From assembly GCA_000310025.1 (NCBI GenBank), contig FN649752.1, positions 1,517,751-1,560,462 of the forward strand: a stretch of DNA of 42,712 nt, given 5' to 3'. Positions within the stretch are counted from its first letter, which is position 1; every line of letters begins with the position of its first letter. Shown here piece after piece: positions 5,493 to 36,878 of the stretch. The position numbers and the translations under genes are program-made. A model generated the notes under the pieces. It searched no databases, had not been told where the DNA came from, and saw nothing but the letters and a program-made list of their open reading frames with translations. Source of the stretch: Ectocarpus siliculosus (Eukaryota > Sar > Phaeophyceae > Ectocarpales > Ectocarpaceae).

Positions 5493-8400
5493 CTACACCG
5501 CAGCAGCGACCGGGGCCACGTTCTGCCAGAATGTCTCCATGGTCTGGTGCGCGGCGGCGGCTCCCACAACCCTCGAAGCGGACGGCTGCACGATGCGCCA
5601 CATGCGCTCGAGCCTGTCCACCTCGTCTCTCGACCACTGCACCGCTGCTGCTGCTCCCCCCGCCCTCTCCTCCACCGCCGCCTCAACGATTTCCTTGTAC
5701 GCGTAGAACTCCTTGCCGACCCCGGCCCCGCCGCTTTTCCTTCCCTCGCCGCCAAGCGAACCAACCTCCTCTTGTTTCCCTCCCTCTTCCACGAGCCACG
5801 CGATTTCACCCAGTTTCTCGGCCAGGAGCGAGAGGGCCTCCCCGCCCAGGAACATGCTGCTGGGTGCCAGCACGCACGCCTCCTTCGCCGCCTCCCTGGC
5901 CAGCTCCGCGGACCCGGCAGAGGTGAGGAGCTTCAGCTTGGTGTCGTGGTCGCTGCCTACTGCCGGGACGGCGGAGCCTGACTCGCGGGGGTATGTGGGG
6001 CTCGGCACGGCCGATTTGTGCTCATATCTGAAAAAAAGAGAACGCGCAAAAGGTGAAGGGCATGGACAGGGAACGGTTGAGGACGAACACATGGATCGAA
6101 AAATGTGCCGGGCGCTTGGGACATCTAGAACATGCTCCGCACGGACGGTGACTCTATAACATTAAGCAAAGAGTACACAGCCCTCAGGGTACGCGATATC
6201 AGGCAAGAAGACAGGGCTATATGTACAGAATGCTACGGGCATGATGGGATACATAAGTTCACAGCTCAAGCAGCCCATAGAGGCCTCCCTGATGCGCGTG
6301 TCGCAAGGCCCTCGAGGACGCAAGCGCGGACCCATCCGCCATGCACTCCGAGCGGAACCCAAAAGCACCGCATGCGATGCGAACACACCGCTCACACGCC
6401 ATGCAACATCGACAAGGAAGACCAGACACAAAACTAGTGCTACAGACTTGTTGCCTCGGGGCGGCGGGATCCCCTTACCCTGCACGGACGGCCGCGGCCT
6501 CGTGCAGCCAAGCCCCCGGAATACCCAAGCCCTCCAAGAAGCGGCCGCGCTCCGCGTCCGGCGAGTTCACGGGCGCCCCGAGCACCCGGTACCCGTGCCG
6601 GAGCACCAGCTCGCGAGCGGTCGCCGCCCGGCGGTCGGGGTCCCCCTCCGCCGTCAACGTCACGTACACGGCCCACTCCCAGAGGCCGACGGCCACGAGC
6701 TGGAAGCGCAGGCCCTCGGTTACGGCCGCAGCCTTGGCGCGGTCCTGGACCTCCGCCACCCCGAGCGCCTCCACGACGTTCATCAAGTGCCACGAGTGCC
6801 GGTAGTCCATCACGTCCGGGGTGACGGCCATTGGCTCTAGCGCCGACAGCAGGGACACGCCCGACGCGCCGCCGACGCCGCCCCCGGCCTTCCTCGACGG
6901 GTACATCGCTAGCAGGCAGCGCAGAACGCAGCGGTCTCTGCCGGATCCACGGTCCTCGCCGCCGCTCTTCTCCAGGGACAGCCCGGCCGGCGGCGGCGGC
7001 GGTGGCATGTACACCCTCCTGAGCTCGGCGCAAACCTTGTCCAGGTGGGCGCTTTCGTGGTGGGTGGGCTCGAGGAAGTAGCGGGCGGTGGGCGATAGCG
7101 CTTCCCCGTCCGCCACAAGGGTGTCGTATGCCTCTATGGCGTTGGCAACAACGCCGCCGCCGCCGCCGTCGCGATCGCCATCCTCCCCGCCGATGCCGGC
7201 AGAGGCACCCGCCCCAAACCACAGGCACAGGCCGAGCTGCCGCATCCAGTCCAGGGAAGGGCGCAGAGAGCCGCCCGGGCCCTTGGAGATCAAGCCCCTG
7301 AGCCCGACGTCGCGGAAGCCTTCGCGCCCCAGCAGCTGGACCACGGAGAACGCCTCCTGAGGCATGCGGGCGTCGGCCCCCGCCGCCTGCCACTGGGCCG
7401 CCTGCTGCGCGAGGAACTTGCTCCCGTAGCGCGCCGGGGGCCGGCCGCCGCCGCCGCCCTGGGTCGCCACCGCCGTCAGCATCACCGCCAGGCGGGGCAG
7501 CCCCGCGGCCATGGCCGCGACGGCGGCGTCGTGGACCAGGCGCACGCTGAGCAGCTCGAGCACCCTCCGCCAGGTTTCACGGTCCGCGTCGCCGCCGCCG
7601 CTCCCGCCGCCGCCGCCGCCGCCGGCAGAAGGGTCACCGCTGGGGGAAGGCACGCAGGACGAAACGGCGCGCGCAAGCCAGTCGCCCACCGCCGCCTCCC
7701 GGCGGGCGGCCGGGGAACCCCCGTCGCAGTCGTCGGCGGGCGTTAAGTCAGCGGCGCGCTGAAGGTCGCCCGGCATCGGGAGGTCTTGCGCCCTGCCCAC
7801 TCCCTCCTCCTGGCCCCACATAGCGCTGGCCAGACGCCAAGACTGCTCCAGCACCCACTCGGGGCTATCTTCGGTCGCCGCCCCCGCCTCTCGCGACGAC
7901 GTAGTAGCAGCGGCGCCCGCCGACCTGTGAACTTCCACGTACCCGTGAATGCAGCGCACGAGAGTGTCGTAGTTCTGCGGGCGATCATTCCTACGCCTTG
8001 GCAGGGCCCACCTGGGAGGCGCCGCCGCCGCCGCCGCCCCGTGGCGCTCCGCCTGTGGTTCAGCAAGCGGACCGGCGGAGCCTAGGTGATTGCGCAGAGG
8101 CTCGACGTACAGCCTGTGCACGTCGCGGTCGGACGCGGACGGGGTGGGGTCGAACCGCGACACCCTCACGCCGTGGAACCCATTCCTCGCGCCGCCGCCC
8201 ATGGCGCGGGGACAGAACAGCTTGCCGTCGGGCCCCCAGCTCGCGCGGAAGCCCCTCCCCATGCGGAGCCCAAGGTCGGCCACCGCCTGCCCCGCCCGAA
8301 CGGCCCCGCGCGCGGCGGCGTCCGAGACCACTTCCCCCGCCGAGGGCTCCCAGGCGTTCGCCAGCGACCGCAGCACCCTACTCTCGAGGCCGCCGGCTGC

Positions 8401-8745
8401 GGGTCTGAAAGCCGCCGCCGCTTTCGCGTCCTCCGAGTTCCGGAGCGCCGGCGGACGGGAGACCTGTTCTGGCTGCAGCCTCGCCCACGACAACGGGCGG
8501 CCGCCGCCGCCGCCGCCGCCGCCGCCGCTGTCACCAACATCGGCCGCCTTACGCGTCGTCCGGCGCTCCTCTTGGCCAAACAGCGACGACCGCATGTGCT
8601 CCATCTGCGAAGGGTCTCTCTCGGGGAAGAGATTACTCGTAACGCGTTGGGAGTCGGGCCAGGCAGTGCCGTCATCGCCGTCCACCACAACCTCCGGGGT
8701 GTCGGTGTCCATCGAATCAAACCCCGCGGCGTCTGAACCCGCCAT
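5493..8745 (-). other. NUP98: Nup96 alpha-solenoid part of the Nup98-96 gene (exons 9-10)
   Basis: Exon 9 (8745-6479) and exon 10 (6027-5493) are joined in phase 2 (GCAGG|GTAAGG ... TTTCAG|A) and encode about 930 residues. Nup96 landmarks in order are GRGFRASWGPDGKLFCP near residue 1285 of the precursor (the family's F-R-V-x-W/F-G-P entry motif), LLAMYPSRK near 1730, VMDYRHSWHL near 1775, GLWEWAVYVTL near 1815 and LGIPGAWLHEAAAVRA at the exon 9 end (the W-I/L-H-E-A-K-A turn of the family). Compared with metazoan Nup96 there are many Gly/Ala homopolymer insertions from CCG/GCC repeats. The acceptor of exon 9 (GTTAG|ATGG) is the weakest splice site of the gene. Confidence 0.9.
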
Positions 8746-11700
8746 CTAACGTACAGCGTCATGTTGATGGGCGGCGGCGGCGGCGGGGGCGCAGCAGCCA
8801 AAACAGCACACACGAGGCGCACGCGTAGCCACGGTCGGAACATGGACCAGCTTTTTGAACAACGCTTGATTTAATCTATCTCCGATCCAAAAAACACACG
8901 TACATCGATTCGGCAGAAAAAAAGGTAGAGATGTACAACAATCATTTTTGTTTTTTTTGTCTTCACTTCAAATCAGCGCTCACATCACTAGTGCCGTTTA
9001 CTACAACCCGTGGACACACAGAAGAGCCCCTCTCTACCCTCCCCTCCTGCGGTACTTTGCCTTCGACTTTTAATGCGAGAAGAGTTCAGCACTCTCTTCC
9101 CTCTGTGTACACACGAACTAGCGCTATCCACTAGGCCAGGAGCGGAAGCGAGAGAAAAACTCACTTTGCAAGAAAAGCTCGCTTACGCCGGGATTCGAAC
9201 CCCTGACCTGACCTCTAGAAGGTTCCGAGGTTACCACCTAGACCACCGGGGCGACCAATCATGGGCCGAGGGCGAAATGAAATCAAAAGCAGCCACGTCT
9301 TCCGTCGCCCCCCTCTTCTTCGTAAATGCCTCTACCCTCTTTCTATCTCTCTCGTCGTCTCGTCTGATCGCCGCACCTTGCTCTCGCCCTCGACGCCGGT
9401 GCGGCGGCGGGTGATGGAGGCCTCCCTCGCTCCGCCGCCGGCGTCTGAAGCGTTGTCGGCGACGCTGCCCTCGTCATCAGTGTCGGGCATGGCGAGCTTT
9501 GTGCTCCTGCGGCCTTCGGAAGCAGCCCTCTTCTGACCTGAATCCCCCCCCGGGTTTCAGCCCCAATCCCAACAACAACGCGCCCGATGAGTCAAGGGGA
9601 AAAGAAAAAGCGCCACCGGCACGCGGGCGGAAATTTTTTTCCAATATTACCTTCCTGAATCTCAGGAAAAAAAACACACACACAAGGACGTTCGAGACAA
9701 GAAGCCAAAAAAAAACATGCTACGCGAGAAAGCCAAAAAGCACGGACTCTCTTTGGCAGGAACGAAAAATGCATCAAGCAACAACGCACCTTTCGACGGC
9801 GTCGTCCCACGAGCAGGGCGGGGCACCCTTCCCGCCCGCCCAAGCGCAGGCGGCGGCGGCATCTTCTTCGCGCTGTCGGCGTCCTTCTTGCTGGCGGCGC
9901 CGGGGTCCTTGTCGTCGTCGTCGTCGTCGTCGTCACTCATGGCGTAGCGCGACCAGTGGAAAGTCTCGAACACCCACTCTCCGATGTCCACGTCGTAGCT
10001 CACAAGCTTCGCGCCTTCAAAAATCCACAAAAGCAGCGAAGGTGGGTTTCGATTATCGAGGTAGGCCGAGCAAAAAACGGGGCGCACATGGGGTAAGGAG
10101 GGGGGGGGGGGGGTGTACTCATAGTCGTGCATGCCGTAGTCGTTTGACCATTGACCTCGCATCCCTACAAAGCCGGGACGGAGCACGCCGGGTTCTCACC
10201 GGACCAGGCTCTCACATCACCAAGCGCGAAGCGCCGTGAGGTATTTGGCGAGTCGCATGAAGGGTGAGCTGCATCCTGCTAAGGGTGTTCGGCATCTTGT
10301 GCTTACTTCCTTGCGTACGGATGACAGCTACGTATGACTTAATTTATTTTCTGGTGCTTTCACTTCCAGAGACAGTTGTAAGCACTGTGTAACTGCCTCG
10401 AGGAAGCTTGACCATTTTAACACAACGTGGTGCGATCATCCCCCGTTGCGCGGAGTGAGGTTTCTCGACCCCGCACAACATGATCTACTCGACCACCATT
10501 ATGGTTACCGCCAAAAAAAAAAAACGAGGTAAAAAAAAAAAAACGGTAACCTGGTTGTCGAGTTCACGAAGTGAATTGGCTTGTTTTACAACGTCGTTGC
10601 CAAGCGACGAAAACCCAATCCCGATGGCAAACACCGAGTGGGGGGCTTGTTTTACAACGTCGTAGCCAAGGGAGGAAAACCCAAACCCGGAGGGAAAACC
10701 CGGGGGGGGGGGGTTTTTTTTACAAGGTGGTTCCCAAGGGAGGAAAACCCAACCCCGAGGGCAACCCCCGAGGGGGGGGGGGGGGGCATGGGCGATTGGC
10801 AAGGATGAGTTTATGTATAGTATCACAACACAAGCTGAGGACAAACCAAAGGGAGAAGAGCCCATGCCTGGGAGAGCAATCAGCGATGAAACGATTGGCA
10901 TGCAACTCTTGTCCGCCGGCTAGTAAGCCGCTTCCAAACAACAAAGCTACGACCGAAGCCTGGGCAAGCTCCATGAAACAACACAAACGGCCACAGGAAG
11001 CAAGTAACCAGCATCCACAGCCGAAGCAGCGAACTCATCTCGTGTGTGTGTGGCTACTATTAGCATCGACCGCGCTAACCGGCAGACCAATCAAAAAGGC
11101 GTCAGCGCTAGCGGGTAAAAGTTGTGTCTGCGTGTTTTCTTAATTGGCATCGACCGCGAACAGGCTGACCAATGAACAGACCTCAGTCCTGCAGCGGGAA
11201 ATTAACACGAACACTTTCTAACCGAAGGGTAAAGGTCCTACCGACAGGGGGGGCGCAGGAGTTGGATGACAGTGTCCTACCTCCGACGTACAAGGAGGGG
11301 ACTCAATCCTATCAGGCGGCACTGCTGCTCGATCTGTGTGTGTGTGTTTCGACTACTCAGACCCCAACCAACCTCTCACCAATCTTCTCCGTGTTCTTGC
11401 TGACCCTGGCCTCGTAACGGCGTTTTTCAGCGTCGGACGGGTCCGCCGCCTTGGGGAAGATGTTGTAGAGGGTGACCCTGGTGGGCTTGTTGAGCCCCTC
11501 GCCTAGCGCCGGCTTCTCTTCCCCTTCGGCAAGCTCGTCGTACACAGACACCGACTTGTGCTCGATCGCGACCTGTTTCCGCAAAGACAACCACGTCAGG
11601 GGAGGGGGAGACGTCAACGACCGGGGGGGTGAGGGCGGAGAAAACGTCAGGGGATCAACGGGAAGCAGAGAGGAGAGCGCACATCTTCCAACATCAAAAA

Positions 11701-14700
11701 TGAAGAAAAAAAAAAAGCTAGAACCCTGTGGTTGTAATTCTCGAACGAATTGTCTTTTGTGATATTTACATCTCTAAAATAAACCACATAAAAACATTCT
11801 TCCTCTCCGAAATGGGTTCTCACGTCCGGCGTACTCCCTCTCGTACAATCTTTTTCCCAACGCGTTCGTAGATCTTACCCGACAAAGAAAAAATCCCTTC
11901 ACCGCAAGCACACAAAAAGCATACTCCACTCACCACGCTGCCGATGTCCACGCCACGAAGGTCCACCGGTTCCTTCCAGGCGATGCTGCCGTAGCCCTGC
12001 CGGGTCACCACGAACCCCGAGACCGCCGTCAGCGCGTCCTTCGTCATCTTCGCGAGCTCCGCCATCGACGGCTCCGTCTTGTACTCCTCGAGATCCAGCG
12101 TGGGAGCCAAGTCATTGCCGCCGCCGCCGCCCCCGACTCCTTCACCTTGGAAGAGCCGGCCGTTTCCGGTGGCGGGGGAAGCGTCTAGCAGGCTCTCGTC
12201 GCCCCCGCCCCCCGCCGCCGCCCGCACGTCGGTACCGATGCCGCCGGTGCTGGGCGGCGGCGACACCACGCCGCCGCCGCCGCCCCGCCCCCCGCGGGCG
12301 TCGTGGCGGGCGCTGCCATCAGGGGAGGTGGCGGAGAAGTCCACCCTGTTCGGGCCACCGCCGTTCATCTCGGAGGAGGTGGCGGGTACGGCAGTGGCCG
12401 GTTCGCCCTTGGACTCTTCCACACCAGACCCGTTGGCAGCGCCGCCAACAACATCCGGCTGAGAAGAAGAAGTGCCCCTGTCCTCCGCGGGAGGGGCAGC
12501 AATAGCCGCGGTGGCGGGGCTGCTCCGGACGAGCGGCCTCGACGACGAGAAGCGCTCGCGCCTCTCCTCCGTTTCGGTGGGGATGTTGAGCCGCTTCACG
12601 CCGCCGCTCAGATACGCGTCCGGGCTCAGGATGCCTGACTTGGGGCCCGGCGTGAGCGCCCCCTCCGAGAGCAGCCGGGCGGTGGACGAGACGGCCGCGC
12701 CGCCGCCGCCGCCGCCCTTGCCGTCCTTCTTCCCCGAAGCGGTGACGCCTCCGCCGCCGAAGCCGCGGGGCTGGATGTAAGCGTTGGAGCGCGGGGTGCG
12801 GCGGTAAGCGAAGCCGAGGGACGGCGACGCCTGCCCGGCGCCGCCACCGCCTTGGCTGCCGCCGGAGGAGCCAGCGTGGTGGTGGCGCTCGAAACTGATG
12901 GCCAGCTGTTGGCTGCTGTTCTGCACGCCCTTGATCTGCAAGATAAGGGGAGGGAGGAAGAAAGAGATTGTGTGCGCGCGTGTGTTTGTGTTCGCAAGTA
13001 GGTGCTCCCTGAGGAAAAAGAGCAAGAGAGCGGACGGGATAGTAGGGGATAACGTTGACGTTCCTGCGCCACGGGTGTTTCTCGTACACCCGTGGACAGA
13101 AGGTTCACCCCGCGAAGGGATACTTGCCGTGGGGACGACGGCGCTGTGATTCCTAAACGTAAAATTCCGAGCCGTTGGTACCAGTCCAATATTACCAGTC
13201 CAATATTGTCAGCATCAAAATTCTCAACAACTGCTGTCCTGTCATGGCAACAGAGCAGCAGCACACGATCCGACGTCACATAGTGGTGGAACACTCACAT
13301 GAGCAGACGCACGACGATAGATCCAAACCATCAAAGAGAGCCGCTCGCTGTTTATGTTCTCCGCCCTCACCATGGCCTTGACATGGGGACGGGCAACCTC
13401 CCCATGACATGGCCTGCCATAGCGAGAGAACAGCGCGCGAGACTGCCATACGTACGCCCACCCCACCCCCAACAAACCATGCTAGAAATGTCGCGCGAAA
13501 GCTCCAACGTCACCACACAACCGACCAGAGAGACACAAGAGCATCCCACCACAAAACGACTACACAAGGCGGTGATTTTTATTGCCGAACGCTCTACCTT
13601 ACCGAGACCTCGCGCAAGCGAGCTGCGTAATAGAAACCGTCGCCGTGCAACCCGCCCTTCCCCCACGCTTACCTTCTGCTCCAAAGCTCCCGACCCGAAC
13701 GCGGGATTGCCAGCAGCGCCGTAGGGGTCCTGATTGTGAAGGGCGACTCGCTGCTGTTGCTGTTGCTGCTGCTGTTGTTGCTGCTGCTGCTGTTGGGTCG
13801 TCGCACCAAACAGCCCGCCGGTCGGCGCCGCCGTCCCAAACAGCCCGCCAGAGGCAGGCGCGCCAGACATAGCACCTGGGGCGGGAGCAGCGGCCCCAAA
13901 AGTGGTTCCGAGCCCACCAAACGCGCTGGTGGTAGCAGGCGCAGGTGCCGCGGCGGTTCCAAAGCCGAATGCACCGGGGGCAGGGGCAGCGGCGGTCGAC
14001 CCAAAGAGCCCCCCGGGGGCCGGCGGCGCTCCGAACGCACCGGTAGCAGCGGTCTTCGTGAAGCCCCCGCCAAACGAGAACCCCCCCGCCGCTGCGGGCG
14101 CGGGGGCGGGGGCCGGGGGCTTCGAGAAGCTGAAACCTCCCGCAGCGGGGGTGGTGGCGGCGGGCGTCGATCCGAAAAGGCCTCCTCCCGCCGTCCCGCC
14201 AAACGCCGACTGGGCGGGGGCGGGCGCGCCGAAGGCGGGCTTCACCGCGGGGGCCGGCGCTCCGAAGCCGAACCCGCCCGTCGCCGGAGCCGTGGCGGCG
14301 GGGGTCGCTCCAAAGGCGGTGGCGCCAGTCCCGGCGGTGGCCGGAGCACCGAACGAGAATCCTCCCGCCGCTGCCGGAGCGGGGGCGGGCGCGGCTCCGA
14401 AGAGCCCTGTGAACCCCGTGGCGGCGGGCGCCGGCGCGGCGGAGGCGGGGGCGCCGAAGCTGAACCCGCCGGCCGCAGGGGCGGGGGCTGGAGCGCCGAA
14501 CAGGGTGGCTGGGGCCGCGGCCGGGGCTCCGAACAGGCCGCCCGTGGCACCGGGGGCGGCGGTGGTGGCGCCACCGACGGTCCCGAAGCCTCCCGCGGTC
14601 GGTGCGGCTGCCGGTGTCCCGAACGTGGTTCCGAAGGGCGAGGCGGAAGGAGCCGCCGAGGTAGCGGCCGCTCCGAAGCTAAAGCCTCCGGCGGCGGCAG

Positions 14701-17700
14701 GGGCAGGAGCGGCGGCGACGGACGCCCCGAAGAGGCCGCCGGCGGCAGGGGCAGGAGCGGCCGCTCCGAAGCCGAAGCCTCCGGTGGCAGCAGGAGCGGC
14801 GGCGGCAGACGCACCGAAGGTGGTCCCAAAGAGGCCGGTGCTTGGGGCGGCGCCGGCGGCGGTGGCGCCGGCTGTCACGGCCGAGCTGTTCTTGCGGTTG
14901 AGGAGGTAGTCCTCGACTCGCAACTCCTCGTGGCTCTTGCCGTCGTACTCCTGTGGAAGATGCATGCGGGCGACGGGTGGGCGGACAACAAAGTCAAGGT
15001 TTGGCGAAGGCACCGCGGAGGCCGGAGACGGCTGGGCGTGCATACTCCTACACAGCTGGCGGACGGCATCTAGAACACAAGCGGATAGGAGTCCGCTTTG
15101 GGCATAACGACAGACAGGCCAAGCTCGGTAAAAAAAAAAAAGGCAGTCTATTGAGGAGGCGTGTTCACCCTTTTCTGCTGCTTCATCTATTTAGTGGCAC
15201 ACCTACTGCTATACCTCTCTACCCGGCCAAAGGATGGCACATTTCGGCCATACACTGCTGCAAAACAGGCGGAACTCGAACCAGCTAGACAGATACAGTT
15301 TCACTTGCCCGCAGGTGTCGACTAATCTGTACGCAGGGGAACCCAAACGCGTGCACGCGGTGTGCCCCACTGCTGTTGCTGAGTTACTTGGGTAAAGTTT
15401 ATCTGATGCGACTTATCTTCTCGCGATAAAAATAAAATTCAGCACGCACCGCAGAAGTGGGGCACGAAAACAAATACAAAAAGAAAAATGCTCTGGTGTT
15501 TGCCCCCTCCTGTGTGACCCTGGATGGTTGTAGTTGTACGAAAAAATACACTGCGAAGTCTAGTACTCTACACGTCTCACCACGAAAAATCCACGAAAAA
15601 TGGGGGGACTGATGCCATAGTAAATAGAACGAAAACACACGCACAAACCGACGGCATCGCCCCCTTGTTTGGTCGTCCTCGGAGACCTCAACGCTTGCCC
15701 ATGGGCGCGAAATGGTCGACAGGCCAGCACAAGCGAGAGGCTTGCTTGACCCGACCTCCAGCACGACCGCCATCTGATCCCGAGACAGACAGTAACGGAG
15801 CGTCTTGCTCGAGTGGCTCACAACAACAACACCGCCCTGTCCCCCAGAATCCCGGGTGAACGTAAGTCACGAGCAGAAAAGCGGACCACAAGACAACTCC
15901 GGTTTGTTGAAACTCAAAAAAGCAAACAGCTAAGGGTGCACACAAAGTCGAACCCCGCGGCGCCTGCCTCTGATGGCGGACGAGTCCTACCTATGTAACA
16001 GTCTCACCTTCATCGCGGAGATCGACTGGAGCATGCCCGGGTTCGCTCCAGCCTTGCCTGTCGGGTCCTCCGCGCGAGTCTCTCGCCACGCGGGGTTACC
16101 CGTCCCCTGCCGCTGCTGCGCGGGCGCGCCGAACTTCGCGGCCCCGGCCCCAAACCCCGTCGGCGCGGGAGCCGCTCCGATGAGCCNNNNNNNNNNNNNN
16201 NNNAACGCGTAGGTGGCGGGGACCGCGGCGCCGAAGGCCGGGGTGGCGGCCGGGGCCGCGGCGGGGGCGCCGAACACGCTGGGCTTTGCCGCACCGAAGG
16301 CGCTCGTGCCGGCCCCGAAGCCGCTGGTAGTGGTGCTTCCGAACGTCTGTGGGAGAGGAGGGAGGGGGGGCGGGGAGGGGTACTCTCATGTTTTGCATGC
16401 CTCGGCGGTTATAGAATACTGACAGGGCAAGGGAGCTCCGTGGGCTACGAAGTATTTGCTTCCTGCAGGGGCGTTCAAGCGGAGCGCTCTTGGATGCCTC
16501 TAGCGTCGTCGCTCAAGTGAGCGGTTGCATTGTCTCCTCGCATGTCGTCGAATACGTGGGCACAGAAACACAGATGTTACTGGGTTCCGATCCGTCGGTT
16601 CAACCCGAAGCGGAATGGCAACAACGGACTGTAGCAACGCGCGTGCTCGGTAGGCAATTTTACATGCGATTGAGATTCCATTCCATTCTCAGTACAATAA
16701 CTCAAATCGACAAAAACAAATACTCCAAGGCACTTGCCTACCGAGCACAAGCCTGCTAAAAAAAAGAATGAAAACGCGGAATCCTACACAGCTACAGGAG
16801 TAGTCTTACCGGCTTGGCGCCGAAAGCGCCGGTTGTGCTGGCGCCGAACGTCGTCGACGCTGCCCCGAAGGCTGGGGTCTGTTGCTGAGCCGTGTTGCTG
16901 CCGAACGGGGTCGCTGAAGCGGAGAGCAGCCGCACCGAGGAACAAGAGAGCGGTTGTAGCGGAGGGTAACGGGCGCGCGTGGAAAGGGGGTCAGTTGTTG
17001 AGGGGATGCGTTGTAAGGATCAATGCGTGGTACACACAGGGATCAAACCGTGGTGTAGAGATAGAGATCAAAATGTCGTGTCAGTAGACGGGGGGGCGCG
17101 ATTGAACGCGGTACCCAAAGCCGCAAGATGGACCTCATATCACGCTCCAGTTGTATACTCTATTTTTCCTTCTGTATGCATATTCTTTTCATCATTGGTG
17201 GTGTACCATCCGGCCATTCGAGTCGTGTCGGGGCCTCTGTTTCACCTGCCGGCGCCCCCGTCCGGTTCAGCAGCAAAGGTGGGGAACACAACATGAATTA
17301 TCTTGTGTTTCATTTGTAGAAAGAAAAAAATCTAACGCAAGAGCATTCTCGGAGGGGATGTGATGGAAGCCTGTTTAGCAAGGGTTGGGTGACCCCTGCT
17401 GGATGCTGGGGTGCTGCGTCTGTGTGTAAGTCCTTGCACAGCAATCACCCATGCCAGCTGGAATAGAAGCCTACAGAGTGGTACAAGTCTCCTGCCGGGT
17501 CAACGCCAACTTGCTCCATCCTGATTTTCGCATGTATTCTTCTCGGCAATTTTTTTCTTGCCCGGCCTTGCCAGAGGTTACAAAACGAAAAATTAAAGAG
17601 AAACAACACGATACACGACTTTTATGTAGGTCGGCGAGGCAAAGAGTCGGTTCGAACTTTCTTGCGATAGCAAGCACGGCAAGCACCGCCGAGGGAAGGC

Positions 17701-20788: not shown

Positions 20789-23700
20789 CTACTCAAGCAT
20801 CCCCGGCCCCAGCGGCTGCTCGGGGCAGGCGGCCTCTATTCGCTTGCAGAGCTCCGACAGGAACTCGGCCTGCACTCTCTGGGCCATGCTGCCGTTCTCC
20901 TGCTGCAAGATCACCCTCTCAACCGCCACCTGTTGTCGTGTTTCGCGCACACGGGCGGGGGTCGGTTGGCAACGGCAGAGGCGGTCGGACAAAAGACAAG
21001 AGCGCTTTCTTCGTCGCCATCTATCCATGCGCAACGTGTGTGTGCATCACAACACACCGCACTATCCATGCGCACCAAGCAACGTATGTGCACGCATCAT
21101 CACAACACACACCGTAGAACTTTTTGAGGCCGGAAAGAAAGGTCAAGGGATGTGGAACACGTGCACGCACACGGATGTGTAAGCCAACTAGTTCCTGCTC
21201 TCCCTGTTTGCGTGTGCGCCCTCCTGCACGTTGGGCCGATCGGATAGCACAAAAAAAGCACAAAAGAAGACCATATGGGCAGTAGCATGATGTGGCAAGT
21301 TTGCCCTCATGCAACGTCGTCGACAAAAGCACCCCTCCTCCGCGAGAGACAGTACAGCGGAACACCATGCGATACGCGTGGTGGAGCCGCCCGAGCTATA
21401 CAACCCGCACACCGTCCGTTATGGCCGATGCCCACTGTGGTCGAGCGGCGGCCGCTCAGCTAGCGGCCGACGCTGCCTCTTCCTCCAAAATCTAATGCGA
21501 AAACGACCCGCTTCTGACCCCATGCGCGACCGGCAAAACCACCGTTCAGTCGCCCCCCTCGCCGCCTCTCTTAGCATGATGCAGCGCAACTCTCGCCGAA
21601 TACCTCACGGCAATTCGCGCTTGGTCATGTGCTATTGCCTGGTCCGGTGCAAAACCTGGCAAACCGCTCTGCCCCGGCTTTTGTAGGGATGCGAGGCCAA
21701 TGGAATAACGACTACGGCATGCACGGCGATGAGCACACACACCCCTCTCGACGCCTCAGCCCAACGACCCTACAAACAAATCCACCTCTCACCTGGATGG
21801 CCCCCAAGAGCCCGTCCTTCGTAACGCCCCCGGTCATGCCTCGCCCGACCGCGGAAAGGCCGGCCAGCACACCGTCCCACTTGTCGGCGTCCATGTTCAA
21901 GATCTCCTCCAAGAGGAGCTGGGCGGGGGTGCGCTTCTTGGGCGCGGCGGCGTCGGCCTCGCCGGCCTCGCCGGTAGCGCTGGGTTCGGCGCTGCCCAGG
22001 AGAATTTCTTGCGACGCATACATCTGGAGGATCTGCGTGAAAACGGCAATTCAGGGCGGGGACATAGTAGTGGAATGTTGCAGAAACGGGCGAGGGGTTG
22101 GAGAGTGGTTGGGAAGCGCGCCGATTTCGACGTTGTACGAAGTTTGATCGCGAGACGCGGCAAGGGCTATATGCAGGCGGAAAGGGCTAGGTTTGGCCTT
22201 CGGGGTATCACATGTAACCTGAATCTCCACAGAGCATATATCCCCGGTGCTCCTTACAGATGAATGAATGCTCCTTTCGAGCTCGTCGTGGTCAGCGCAA
22301 CATAAAATTCTATTCTTCTCGCCTCCGGAGAAGTCAGTCATGGTTATTCGTGTCTGACACACAGAGAGAGTGTTGTCCATAAGCCTTGCACACGGCCTTC
22401 CGTGACCCCCTGAGTGCACGAACATTACACAGCATACCGGCAGCATACTGCCGTATTCCAGCACACGCTAAGCGCAGATGGGAAGAAAATTGTATCATCC
22501 ACGACACGCCATACCCTCAAAAACGCATACCCGGAACAAGCCCCAACTTGCGTCCTGCCGTGTCTCCTTTTACAAACCGCCCAAGAAAAACAAAAACTAC
22601 AGAAGTGATCTCCATTCTCCATACAACAACGTTGAGCGACCCAGCGAAGAAGCGGCTGATCATGCACCACAGCACTCTACAGACAATTAGCCCCAACTTT
22701 GAAAGGTAAGGTCTCTTTCTGCCTCATGGTTGCACCCGAGGTCGCATTATGACCGTTCGGCAAAGGGTTGACTTGCATGAGTAGAACATGCCAACAGACA
22801 GAAAATACGAAGCGAAAATGCAGCACCGAGCCCATGTCCAAGCACGTCTCAAAGGTCCACCGAAAAAGTCACGCCAGCCGTGAACTGCTGCAAAACGCTG
22901 CTGCTGTAAATACCTTCTGAAGGATGACGACCATGCCTTGCATCTCCTCCTCCTTGCCGCTCTTCTCCATCCACGCTTGGACCGTAGCCTTTCGCAAGGA
23001 AGGGAGGAACGTCGAGCGGATGATGGCAAGCGTTTGTTGGTGCGAGGGTGGTGGTGTTCCAACGGATGGTGTGGGACACATGTAGGGTTTTTCGGTCATG
23101 TTTAGGGTGTTAAATCAATGTTGGACTTCAGGATATCATGAAGTTGCATTTTCTCTTGTATTTCCAGATGGTGTACACCCATTTGCAATGCGAACCTAGG
23201 TGCCACGTTGTATTGGGGTAGTGCATTGCAAGAGGTGATCGCGTGGTCGGTGGTTGCGCGAAATTGACGTACGAAGGCAGAAACATGGAGCCGCCAGCAC
23301 CGGGCAGAGCCGAGGGCTGGTTCCCACAAGACAACTCCCGCTACATTCCCAACAGCAACATTATTGAACCTCTCAAGTAAAAGCGGTGCGATATGGATTG
23401 GGGGGGGAACGATAAAAACCTGCGACAACAACGTCTTGTGGTGAGAGACAGACACACATACAGGAATAGATGCCGCAGACGGAACGCTACGGAATGGTGT
23501 GTCGCCTCCTTTCCCTTTGCAAGTAGTGTGAAGACAACAACACCAACAGCAACAACAACAAACTCTCATTCAGGAGACTGAACCATGCCATCCAATCTCG
23601 TCCGCGGCTACCCTGTCGGGGGAGTCCGCTCAGCAAGAAAGCGTGTTCGCGAATTTACCAACGACCTCTCATTGGTCAGCCGTTCATGCGGTGGATCCCA

Positions 23701-33240: not shown

Positions 33241-33711
33241 GCAAACGGTCGTTGCGCCTGCAAGGGCGTGCTAGGTTGGGGCAAAGCTCCTTCGGGCTGC
33301 CACACGTTCACCCAACACCAAACCCACAAATTTCGTTGCCAGCGAGACCTTCCGACAAGTTCCAACAGAAGCTTTGACTTTGCAAAGGAAGACAGCCGGC
33401 AGAGATCCGTGTGCAACTGTCGCAACCTGGTGCCGTTCGAGGCTTGCACGCACCTGGCAACGAAGAGGAGAGGAAACAGCGCAGGAGACGAGTCGAGGCC
33501 GGTGCTTGCGCGGTGTGTGTGTACACAGACAGGGGGCTGAGGGAGCTGAGCTTGCGCGCCAAAGGAGGGGCCCCGTGGATGCAGAATACCCCCCTGCGCG
33601 AACCACCTCGCACTCGCCGTTCCGAACCGACCCACTCCACTCACCTGCTCACCTGCTTCTCCTTCTTGACTTGCAAGTGTGCCTTGCACTGCTGTTGCAC
33701 TGCTGTTGAGA
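33241..33711. promoter_or_regulatory. Shared divergent promoter region (471 bp)
   Basis: The two flanking start codons point away from each other, 471 bases apart. No TATA box is visible on either strand. Close to the plus-strand start there is a pyrimidine-rich stretch (33630-33670) and a doubled GCACTGCTGTT. The bidirectional role is inferred from layout only and depends on the first exon of the tetraspan gene being right. Confidence 0.4.
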
Positions 33712-35318
33712 ATGAACGAAGGCTTGAATGGCGGCGACCCCGCGGATGACTTCGACTTGTTCTGGGGCATGCCGCGGTCAGGTGGGGGAGACGGCGGCAG
33801 CAGCGGGAGCGGCATCAATCATGAGAGTCGCGGGGGCGGAGGCCTCACCGACGTCACCAGCGGCGGCGCCGGGTTGATGTCGTCTCCGACCCTCAGCGGC
33901 AGCAGCAGCCGTGCCGGCAACCTGAACACGGCGACGCCGACGCTCATGGGAAGCCTCTGGTCGCACAGCAGCATGCCGCCGGAGGCGTACGGCCACTCTC
34001 TGCACGTGCACGCCAGCCAGGCCGAGGGTCCAGCCCCTACTGCAGCCGGCCTAAACGCCGACCTACACGGGGGCTCACCGCCGCCGCCCGCGAGCTCCCG
34101 GCGGCCGGTCTGGCTGCCGCCCCCCAGCCAGCACCACCAGCACTCGGCAGGAAGAGGAGACGGCATGCATGTTAGCAGCAGGCAACGCCAGCAGCACCTT
34201 CCCGCTACTAGCCCCCCGCGGCAACCGGCACGCCCAACTGCTGTGACAGATGCAAGGGGCCGCGGTAGAAATGGCGGCGAGACTGGCGTTAGCGGCAGTA
34301 TCGTCGAGTACAAGCTGGAGGAGCTCGCGGCGGTGATCACCGCGTCCGTGGTGGGCAAGCTCGAGGTCGACGTTAGGGAAGCGCTGTGGGCGGGCAACCA
34401 GCAGCAACACCATTCGCCTGCTCCTCCTCCTCCTCCTCCTCCTCCTCCTCCTCCTCCTCCTCCCCCTGCCGCTGCTGCGGTTCCTAGCCACGAGGACGAC
34501 CAGAGACGAGTGGCGGCGGCAGTGGAGGCGACGGTGGCACCTCTACGCTCTAGACTCGCGGCTCTCGAGGAACAGATGATTCGGCTGTCAGCCGCAAGCA
34601 GGAGCGGCAGCGGCAGCAGCGGAGATGGCGGTCGTGATACCCCTAGAGGGGTCCGTGGTAATAGCAGCGGTAGCGGTGGGGGCGTGAAGGGCGGGGCGGG
34701 TGGAAACGCTGCGGCAGAACCAATCGCTGCCCTCACCGCGCTCGCTCAGCGCACGGGGACCCTCGAGGGCAGGCACAAGCAGCTCCAGGCGAAGGTCGCC
34801 CTGCTGGACAACTCTTTCGGCCCCAAGGCGTCGGACTGGGCGCAGACCATCAAGGCGTTTCTCCAAGAGCGCGTGTCGGAGCCGGCTGCCGGGGCGGCAG
34901 GAAGAGCAGCGGTCACGGTCGGAACCCGCGGCAAGGGAGGAAAGCGAGGCTTGGGTATCGACGCGCCGGCGTTTGTCCCTCAATCAGCAGCGCAAAGAAG
35001 CACTGCTGCAGTGTGCGCCAGCGCTAGTAGCGGCCCCGGCCAGGGGGCAGCAAGAGCAGCGCCGCCAGCACCAGCACCCTCCGTTGATGTCGAAGGCGCA
35101 AAGCACGAAGAAAGCGCGCCCGAAGTCGTAGGGGCGGTGCAGGGAGACTCTACCGCCGCTGACAAGCCAACGGCAGCGAAAGGAGCGGCGACGGCGACGG
35201 CGGCAGCTGCAGGGAAACTTCAGCGCTGCGCGGGGTGCGCGGAGACGCAGGAACGCTGCAGCCGGCTCGAGAAACGTGTGGCAGAGTCGGAGCGAGCGCT
35301 GTCCTTGCTGCAGAGCCA

Positions 35319-35350
<32 letters not shown>

Positions 35351-36878
35351 CGGAGGCTACCGCGGCGTTGGAGAGCAGGCGAACGGCGGCTGCCGCGGCC
35401 ACGGCGGCCGCAGAAAAGGCAGCGTCATTGGATCAAAAGGCGGCGGCTACGGCTGCGGCGGGGGGAGGAGGGAACTGGGCATCGAAGACGTCCGTGGAGA
35501 AGCTCGCTGCCGCGTTGAGGCAGCTGGCGGCGCGGACAAAGGACGGGGAGGACGCGCTGGCCCTTGTGGACCACGGCCTCAGGGGTGTCCGAGAAGAGGT
35601 GCGGTGTCGGTGATCTACCCGTAGTTAAGAAATGTTTCGTGAAGAAACAGAGGCTTAAAAAAATCACGAAAAACAAGGTAGGAAACACAGCTCAGCTGGA
35701 CCCTCGACTAAAAACTCCTTGTAACAACTGTGCTCGACAGCAGCGGCGATGAAACAAGAAACTCAGCCTCCCGACCCGATTTTCACGATTCTTTTCTCGG
35801 GACCCGTTCTGTATTGTAGCTAACAGTGCAGTCGTTCGCTGTTGTTCTTGTTGTTCTTGTTGTTGTTGTTTTGTCGGAGTTTCCCGTTGCAAGCGGCTGT
35901 CTCCCTCACCATGTACCCGTTCCTTCTGCCGGGGTATTCGGGTTGATATGTGGGCTTGGCTGTTGTATGCATACAAAAGGGCAGTCAGTGACAAAGAGGC
36001 CAATGAAGTCTTATCGCAAGGAATGCGTGGTAAAGGTCGCATCACTACGTCTCGCAAGTAACACATGAGTACCCCTCCCCCCCCCCTCTCACAAATTTCC
36101 CTCCCTTTCTTGGCTTCTCTCGGCACGTTGCACAGATGGCGCCGTTATCCCGGTCTGTGTTGACACTGAAGCGGCTGGTGGAATCCCAACTGAGAGAGAA
36201 AGACCAGGCGGCGGAACTCCTCAAGGGTTACGTCACCACCATAACGAGGGAGGCGAGTGTGGTCTTCCGTCGCCCCATGTATATTCGTCGCCCTTTTTTT
36301 TTATGTTTTGTGGGAGGACGCCCTCTGTCTCTCCCGTCTCGTTTCGCCCCTATAACCTGAATCGACCAGACCAGCTGCCGCTGGTACGAGGCAAGATTCA
36401 GCGCGAAGATTCCTCCTTTCTCGGTATCCACGCAACAGCATGTAGAGGGAGAGCGAGCGCCGAGGGACATTCCCGAGGGCCGGTCGCCACCACAGGGCAT
36501 GTCAAGCTGCTGTTACTCATTCGCCATCTCACCAATAACCCCTGCGTTTTTTTTGCGCCATGCACGCAACGCTATTAAAAAAATCGAAAGGTGGCTGCGA
36601 TCTCTCGGCAGTATATAGTGGGGCTGATGGTCCCCGGGGGGGTCGCCGCCGCTGCCGCGAACAGCAACAACCACAGCGGCGGGTTCAACGGCGACGGTCG
36701 AGTCGAGCCCGCTGCTGTAGCTGCTACCACCATTCCTGCTGTAACCATCACCCCCGTTACCACTACGCCGGTACCTCCGCTGGTCGGTGATTCGTCTCCC
36801 GCTGCTGCGGCTGGCGGCATCAGCAGCAGTAGCAACGTGATTGCGGTAGAAAAAGAAGAAAAGAAGGTAGACAAATAA
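33712..36878 (+). CDS. Low-complexity coiled-coil protein of unknown function, three exons
   Basis: Exons on the plus strand: 33712-35598, 36136-36252 and 36591-36878, joined in phase 0 for 763 residues. The N-terminal half is Gly/Ser/Pro/His-rich, starts MNEGLNGGDPADDFDLFWGM and carries a 15-Pro run (34423-34467). Helical, coiled-coil-like stretches follow: VEYKLEEL-type near residue 200, EATVAPLRSRLAALEEQMI near 275, ALTALAQRTGTLEGRHKQL near 345, RLEKRVAESERALSLLQSQ near 520 with an Ala run, and LTLKRLVESQLREKDQAAEL in exon 2. The C-terminus is Val/Thr/Pro/Ala-rich and ends VEKEEKKVDK. Intron 1 uses GAG|GTGCGG. Intron 2 most simply uses a GC donor (GAG|GCGAGT) with acceptor CGAAAG. A GT six bases later also keeps frame. 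No domain family was recognised; a scaffold, cytoskeletal or ciliary protein is possible but unsupported. Confidence 0.75.

Follow-up and report, generated by a model that had tools for sequence, protein, structure and literature searches.

Nuclear-pore proteins of the Nup98 family that cut themselves do so within a short triad, and at the corresponding site of yeast Nup145 this triad is His-Phe-Ser. Sun and Guo (2008) reportedly found that a conserved hydrophobic pocket grips the side chain of this Phe, so that the bond is strained, and the residues Tyr-Gly-Leu past the Ser are said to hold the tail. The yeast Nup145 precursor, whose domain is homologous by PDB sequence matches, is cut co-translationally into two nucleoporins, Nup145N and Nup145C (excerpts of PMC5653651). 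In the excerpted text of PMC3210808, the Phe in the HFS of Nup98 is likened to the deeply buried Phe of CARD8, and a polar change of Phe to His is reported to abolish cleavage in both Nup98 and PIDD, while altering the triad His of Nup98 has a slight effect only; this reported loss of cleavage concerns Phe to His and not a swap to another aromatic. The Toxoplasma protein TgNup302 resembles that of Ectocarpus siliculosus in joining an FG region and an autoproteolytic site in one precursor, but its triad is HFS, whereas that of Ectocarpus is HWS (PMC6062611, in part). The ZU5/FIIND (PIDD, CARD8, NLRP1) and GAIN domains also self-cleave before Ser or Thr and have a hydrophobic residue ahead of the cut, but they are other families with other motifs, namely HFS in PIDD, SFS in CARD8 and NLRP1, and H-X-S/T in GAIN (extracts of PMC3210808 and PMC13062082).

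We analyzed the Ectocarpus gene within a stretch of 42,712 nucleotides, hereafter referred to as the window. A scripted join of five minus-strand exons (12935-11934, 11572-11380, 10014-9790, 9537-9377, and 8745-6476; the FG exon further upstream left out) gave four GT-AG introns with agreeing phases and a stop-free frame of 1283 residues. The exon at 11934-12935 encodes a low-complexity linker together with the first part of the autopeptidase domain (YKTEPSMAELAKM...), that at 11380-11572 the middle of the domain, including GEGLNKP and VTLYNIFP, and that at 9790-10014 the last autopeptidase strand, HWS, RYAM, and the acidic run that opens the Nup96 half; all three were assigned from their AG and GT borders, phase, and the PF04096 match. 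Borders and phase likewise define the exon of the Nup96-half linker (9377-9537), while the exon of the Nup96 core (6475-8745) was placed by its acceptor, phase, and a PF12110 match at approximately 7566-6484. The latter exon ends in GGGTAAGG (6475-6480), which fits both a stop and a splice donor, and it either stops at the TAA at 6477-6475 or is spliced onward at the overlapping GT at 6478-6477. Upstream, an FG-repeat exon of the Nup98 half lies at 13673-14950 (minus strand; PF13634), its start provisional and its borders and phase set by eye; the CAG at 14953-14951 is a plausible acceptor for it. Both the 5' start and the last exon of the Nup98-96 gene are provisional in the present model.

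The spliced domain matched PF04096 (Nup98-96 autopeptidase, S59) with 130.5 bits, the cut-off being 28.4 bits, and covered positions 2-148 of the 148 in the model. Downstream, in the same reading frame as the autopeptidase, PF12110 (Nup96) matched at 155.1 bits (model 2-295 of 295), and the FG region PF13634 was detected upstream of the autopeptidase at 51.5 bits (cut-off 32.2). A partial match to PF21240, the profile of the Gle2-binding GLEBS motif, was also observed at 14906-14953 (QEYDGKSHEELRVEDY; profile 24-39 of 39), where 21.9 bits fell below the cut-off of 27, and the first half of this motif may lie in an upstream exon. The combination of an FG exon, a PF04096 domain, and a downstream Nup96 domain identifies a precursor gene of the Nup98-96 type.

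On the minus strand, positions 9958-9950 read CACTGGTCG, which encodes His-Trp-Ser (codons CAC TGG TCG). The His (CAC, 9958-9956) stands two residues ahead of the Ser (TCG, 9952-9950), which is the predicted nucleophile, and the Trp (TGG, 9955-9953) occupies the position preceding the predicted scissile bond, which is expected between Trp and Ser. In the phmmer alignment the query ...GEWVFETFHWSRYAMSDDDD was matched without gaps to ...GSWVFKVNHFSKYGLQDSDE of Xenopus (7fik_G) and ...GSWVFKVSHFSKYGLQDSDE of human (7f60_C), placing the Trp opposite the Phe of HFS in both, in agreement with MAFFT. Among the PDB matches listed, Phe was found in all aligned sequences covering the site (5 of 24 and 5 of 23 matches, all vertebrate). 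One PDB entry, 2q5x, is a human domain in which the chain continues across the site and the Ser is replaced by Ala. The human and Xenopus domains (S59, PF04096) are alike to that of Ectocarpus over the whole length (36-37% identity, MAFFT) and share with it the triad position, the His and Ser, the Tyr two residues after the Ser, the acidic run, and a downstream Nup96; Tyr and acidic residues past the cut are retained in the phmmer alignment. They differ from it in having Phe rather than Trp before the scissile bond and in the residues after the cut, which are RYAM in Ectocarpus and KYGL in human, so that the tail reads YAM instead of the YGL of human and Xenopus. Replacing YAM with YGL added 2.2 bits in PF04096, which indicates that the Ectocarpus tail is also slightly off-consensus.

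These observations confirm what the original prediction saw in the sequence and partly support its interpretation; it had claimed a Nup98-96 gene with an intact autoproteolytic domain, HWS in place of HFS with the catalytic Ser and His retained, and alignment of the Trp with the usual Phe position. The domain match and the joined frame establish the gene and its domain, and the minus-strand reading, the intact exon, and the agreement of phmmer and MAFFT against human and Xenopus Nup98 establish the triad and its alignment. It is highly improbable that TGG replaces a Phe codon through an error in sequencing or assembly. The assembly is imperfect, as shown by a run of unknown residues elsewhere in the window (ORF 15999-16520), but TGG lies two bases from the Phe codons TTC and TTT, and a one-base error therefore cannot convert one into the other; two substitutions would be needed, in a setting where the flanks and the frame are intact and where Trp itself seems to be in use within the family.

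We further scored the pre-scissile position against PF04096 after substituting it one by one with 16 of the 20 residues (Asp, Lys, Pro, and Gln left out). Trp (130.5 bits) ranked third of the 16, behind Phe (132.9) and Tyr (131.3), and the other 13 ranged from 125.4 to 129.0 bits (His 129.0, Met 127.8, Leu 127.7, Ile 127.3, Val 127.2, Cys 127.2, Asn 126.9, Thr 126.6, Ser 126.5, Ala 126.3, Arg 126.2, Gly 125.6, and Glu 125.4). Substitutions of the other triad residues lowered the score by 6.6 bits for His to Gln, 2.6 for Ser to Ala, and 0.8 for Ser to Thr. HMMER columns of known composition were built and matched to the observed score differences between residues, a procedure that presumes a Pfam model built with the HMMER default prior. 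At an effective number of 1.8, a pure-Phe column predicted Trp to score 4.2 bits under Phe, as against the observed 2.4, and a coarse and a finer grid both favored about 2% Trp. The refined best fit at this effective number comprised 91% Phe, 6.5% Tyr, 2% Trp, and 0.5% Leu (summed squared error 0.030, versus 0.527 with Trp fixed at 0); the corresponding errors were 0.037 versus 0.680 without Trp at an effective number of 1.7 (92% Phe) and 0.048 versus 0.571 at 1.9 (90% Phe). Overall, the column appears to hold approximately 90-92% Phe, 6-6.5% Tyr, and 2% Trp, these being weighted frequencies that carry no member names and are silent on cleavage by Trp-bearing members, and a Trp-free column fitted 12 to 18 times worse. 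A control column, the Phe of the nearby W-V-F (12 residues), was fitted best at 0% Trp, its error rising from 0.265 to 1.435 at 2% Trp (effective number 1.8), with a looser fit than that of the triad column.

Because the column scores fit about 2% Trp and a Trp-free column fits worse, HWS probably represents an infrequent aromatic variant that is tolerated and already present in the family. Phe, the commonest but non-exclusive residue preceding the scissile bond, is replaced by Trp in the Ectocarpus protein, and the family does not seem to demand Phe strictly at this position. The suggestion that Trp would block cleavage finds no support here, nor does the view that Trp is foreign to the Nup98 family, since about 2% Trp and 6% Tyr among its members account best for the scores. 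The Pfam seed may include non-cleaving paralogues, and a Trp-bearing member is not necessarily a self-cleaver.

We consider it likely that the gene encodes an ordinary Nup98-96 precursor with Trp for Phe, a conservative aromatic change tolerated at low frequency, and that self-cleavage of the product between Trp and Ser most likely persists. We infer this tolerance from the Pfam scores. In the expected reaction, the aromatic side chain would be seated in the hydrophobic pocket with the loop strained; the Ser would then attack the preceding carbonyl (N-O acyl shift), and hydrolysis of the ester would yield a Nup98 ending in His-Trp and a Nup96 starting with Ser-Arg-Tyr. Continued cleavage appears likeliest because Trp is a large hydrophobic aromatic, the column accepts Trp, and the His, Ser, and Tyr are kept. 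The slightly off-consensus tail speaks against this reading, as does ADGRB2, whose GAIN domain is comparable to the Nup98 domain in mechanism only and which keeps HLS yet was crystallized uncut, its half-life being about 100 days (PMC13062082, in excerpt); a correct triad is thus no guarantee of cleavage. It is conceivable, though unlikely, that Trp slows the reaction and that part of the protein stays a Nup98-Nup96 fusion, with the FG domain of the permeability barrier covalently tied to the Y-complex. Trp is bulkier than Phe, the tail is YAM rather than YGL, and the Phe at this site is described as deeply buried, where a bad substitution (His) abolishes cleavage (passages of PMC3210808), but about 2% Trp is apparently present in the family already, and the His and Ser are retained. 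A blocked or slowed reaction is possible but not favored.

A second aromatic difference was observed within the domain, where Ectocarpus has IFP (VTLYNIFP) and human and Xenopus have VWP (VTL..VWP), with Phe for Trp at 11458-11456 (MAFFT). Placing Trp instead of Phe at 11458-11456 added 2.8 bits in PF04096. The Phe at 11458-11456 and the Trp at 9955-9953 form a reversed aromatic pair, which could be compensatory if the two side chains touch. One might imagine that HWS became fixed in the lineage with slowed or conditional cleavage, that Nup98 and Nup96 persist as one chain linking the FG barrier to the Y-complex, and that the pocket co-adapted, for example via the Trp to Phe change at 11458-11456; we regard this scenario as quite improbable.

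Outright loss of cleavage is doubtful to a similar degree; here Nup98 and Nup96 would form one chain, or splicing would supply a separate Nup98, and the Ser and His would be kept by chance or for binding. Precedents come from a putative Plasmodium Nup100 without the HFS site (extract of PMC6062611) and from trypanosomes, which are said to lack the mechanism (extract of PMC8421043). Unlike these processing losses, the Ectocarpus gene retains the domain, the His, and the nucleophile; the Tyr past the Ser, the acidic run, and the match over the whole domain are kept as well, whereas in Plasmodium the site is gone. If HWS cleaves, as we favor, the strain-inducing residue need only be a large aromatic, which would refine the recognition of Nup98-type sites in protists; if it is uncut, the gene would offer a natural test of an uncut Nup98-Nup96 at the pore.

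The literature searched yielded neither cleavage data on any HWS protein nor a relevant account of a Nup98 with F863 or HWS. A Trp at the site was absent from the available portions of PMC6062611, PMC3210808, PMC13062082, PMC2674657, PMC10449503, PMC3482391, PMC11148069, PMC8421043, PMC5450191, PMC524472, PMC6371224, PMC5653651, and PMC8907234. Scans of viral contig and prokaryote genome contig collections gave no confirmed relative. A DNA-pattern scan of the prokaryote genome contigs matched at least 118 stretches, and all 80 of those listed had bacterial titles. When three A1 sequences were compared with the 118 stretches by tblastn, four matches were obtained with E up to 1 (the top match, L104, had E 0.016 and 28% identity over 99 residues), and none was accepted as a relative.

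Several further features were noted in the window. On the plus strand, positions 33670-35613 hold an open frame of 647 codons that includes runs of Pro, Gly, and Ala and matched nothing in Pfam at E values up to 0.01. The intron that separates the two Nup96 exons contains GGTTCGAATCC at 9191-9201 (minus strand), which we take to resemble a tRNA B box; this site might be a tRNA-derived repeat, and ARAGORN reported no tRNA anywhere in the window. The intron preceding the HWS exon includes a 66-base unit repeated three times in tandem (10578-10777), the copies being 82-83% identical to the first. One arm of an inverted repeat pair (10106-10171 and 21680-21745; 66 bases, 86% complementary) lies in the same intron, and its two arms look like copies of an interspersed element.
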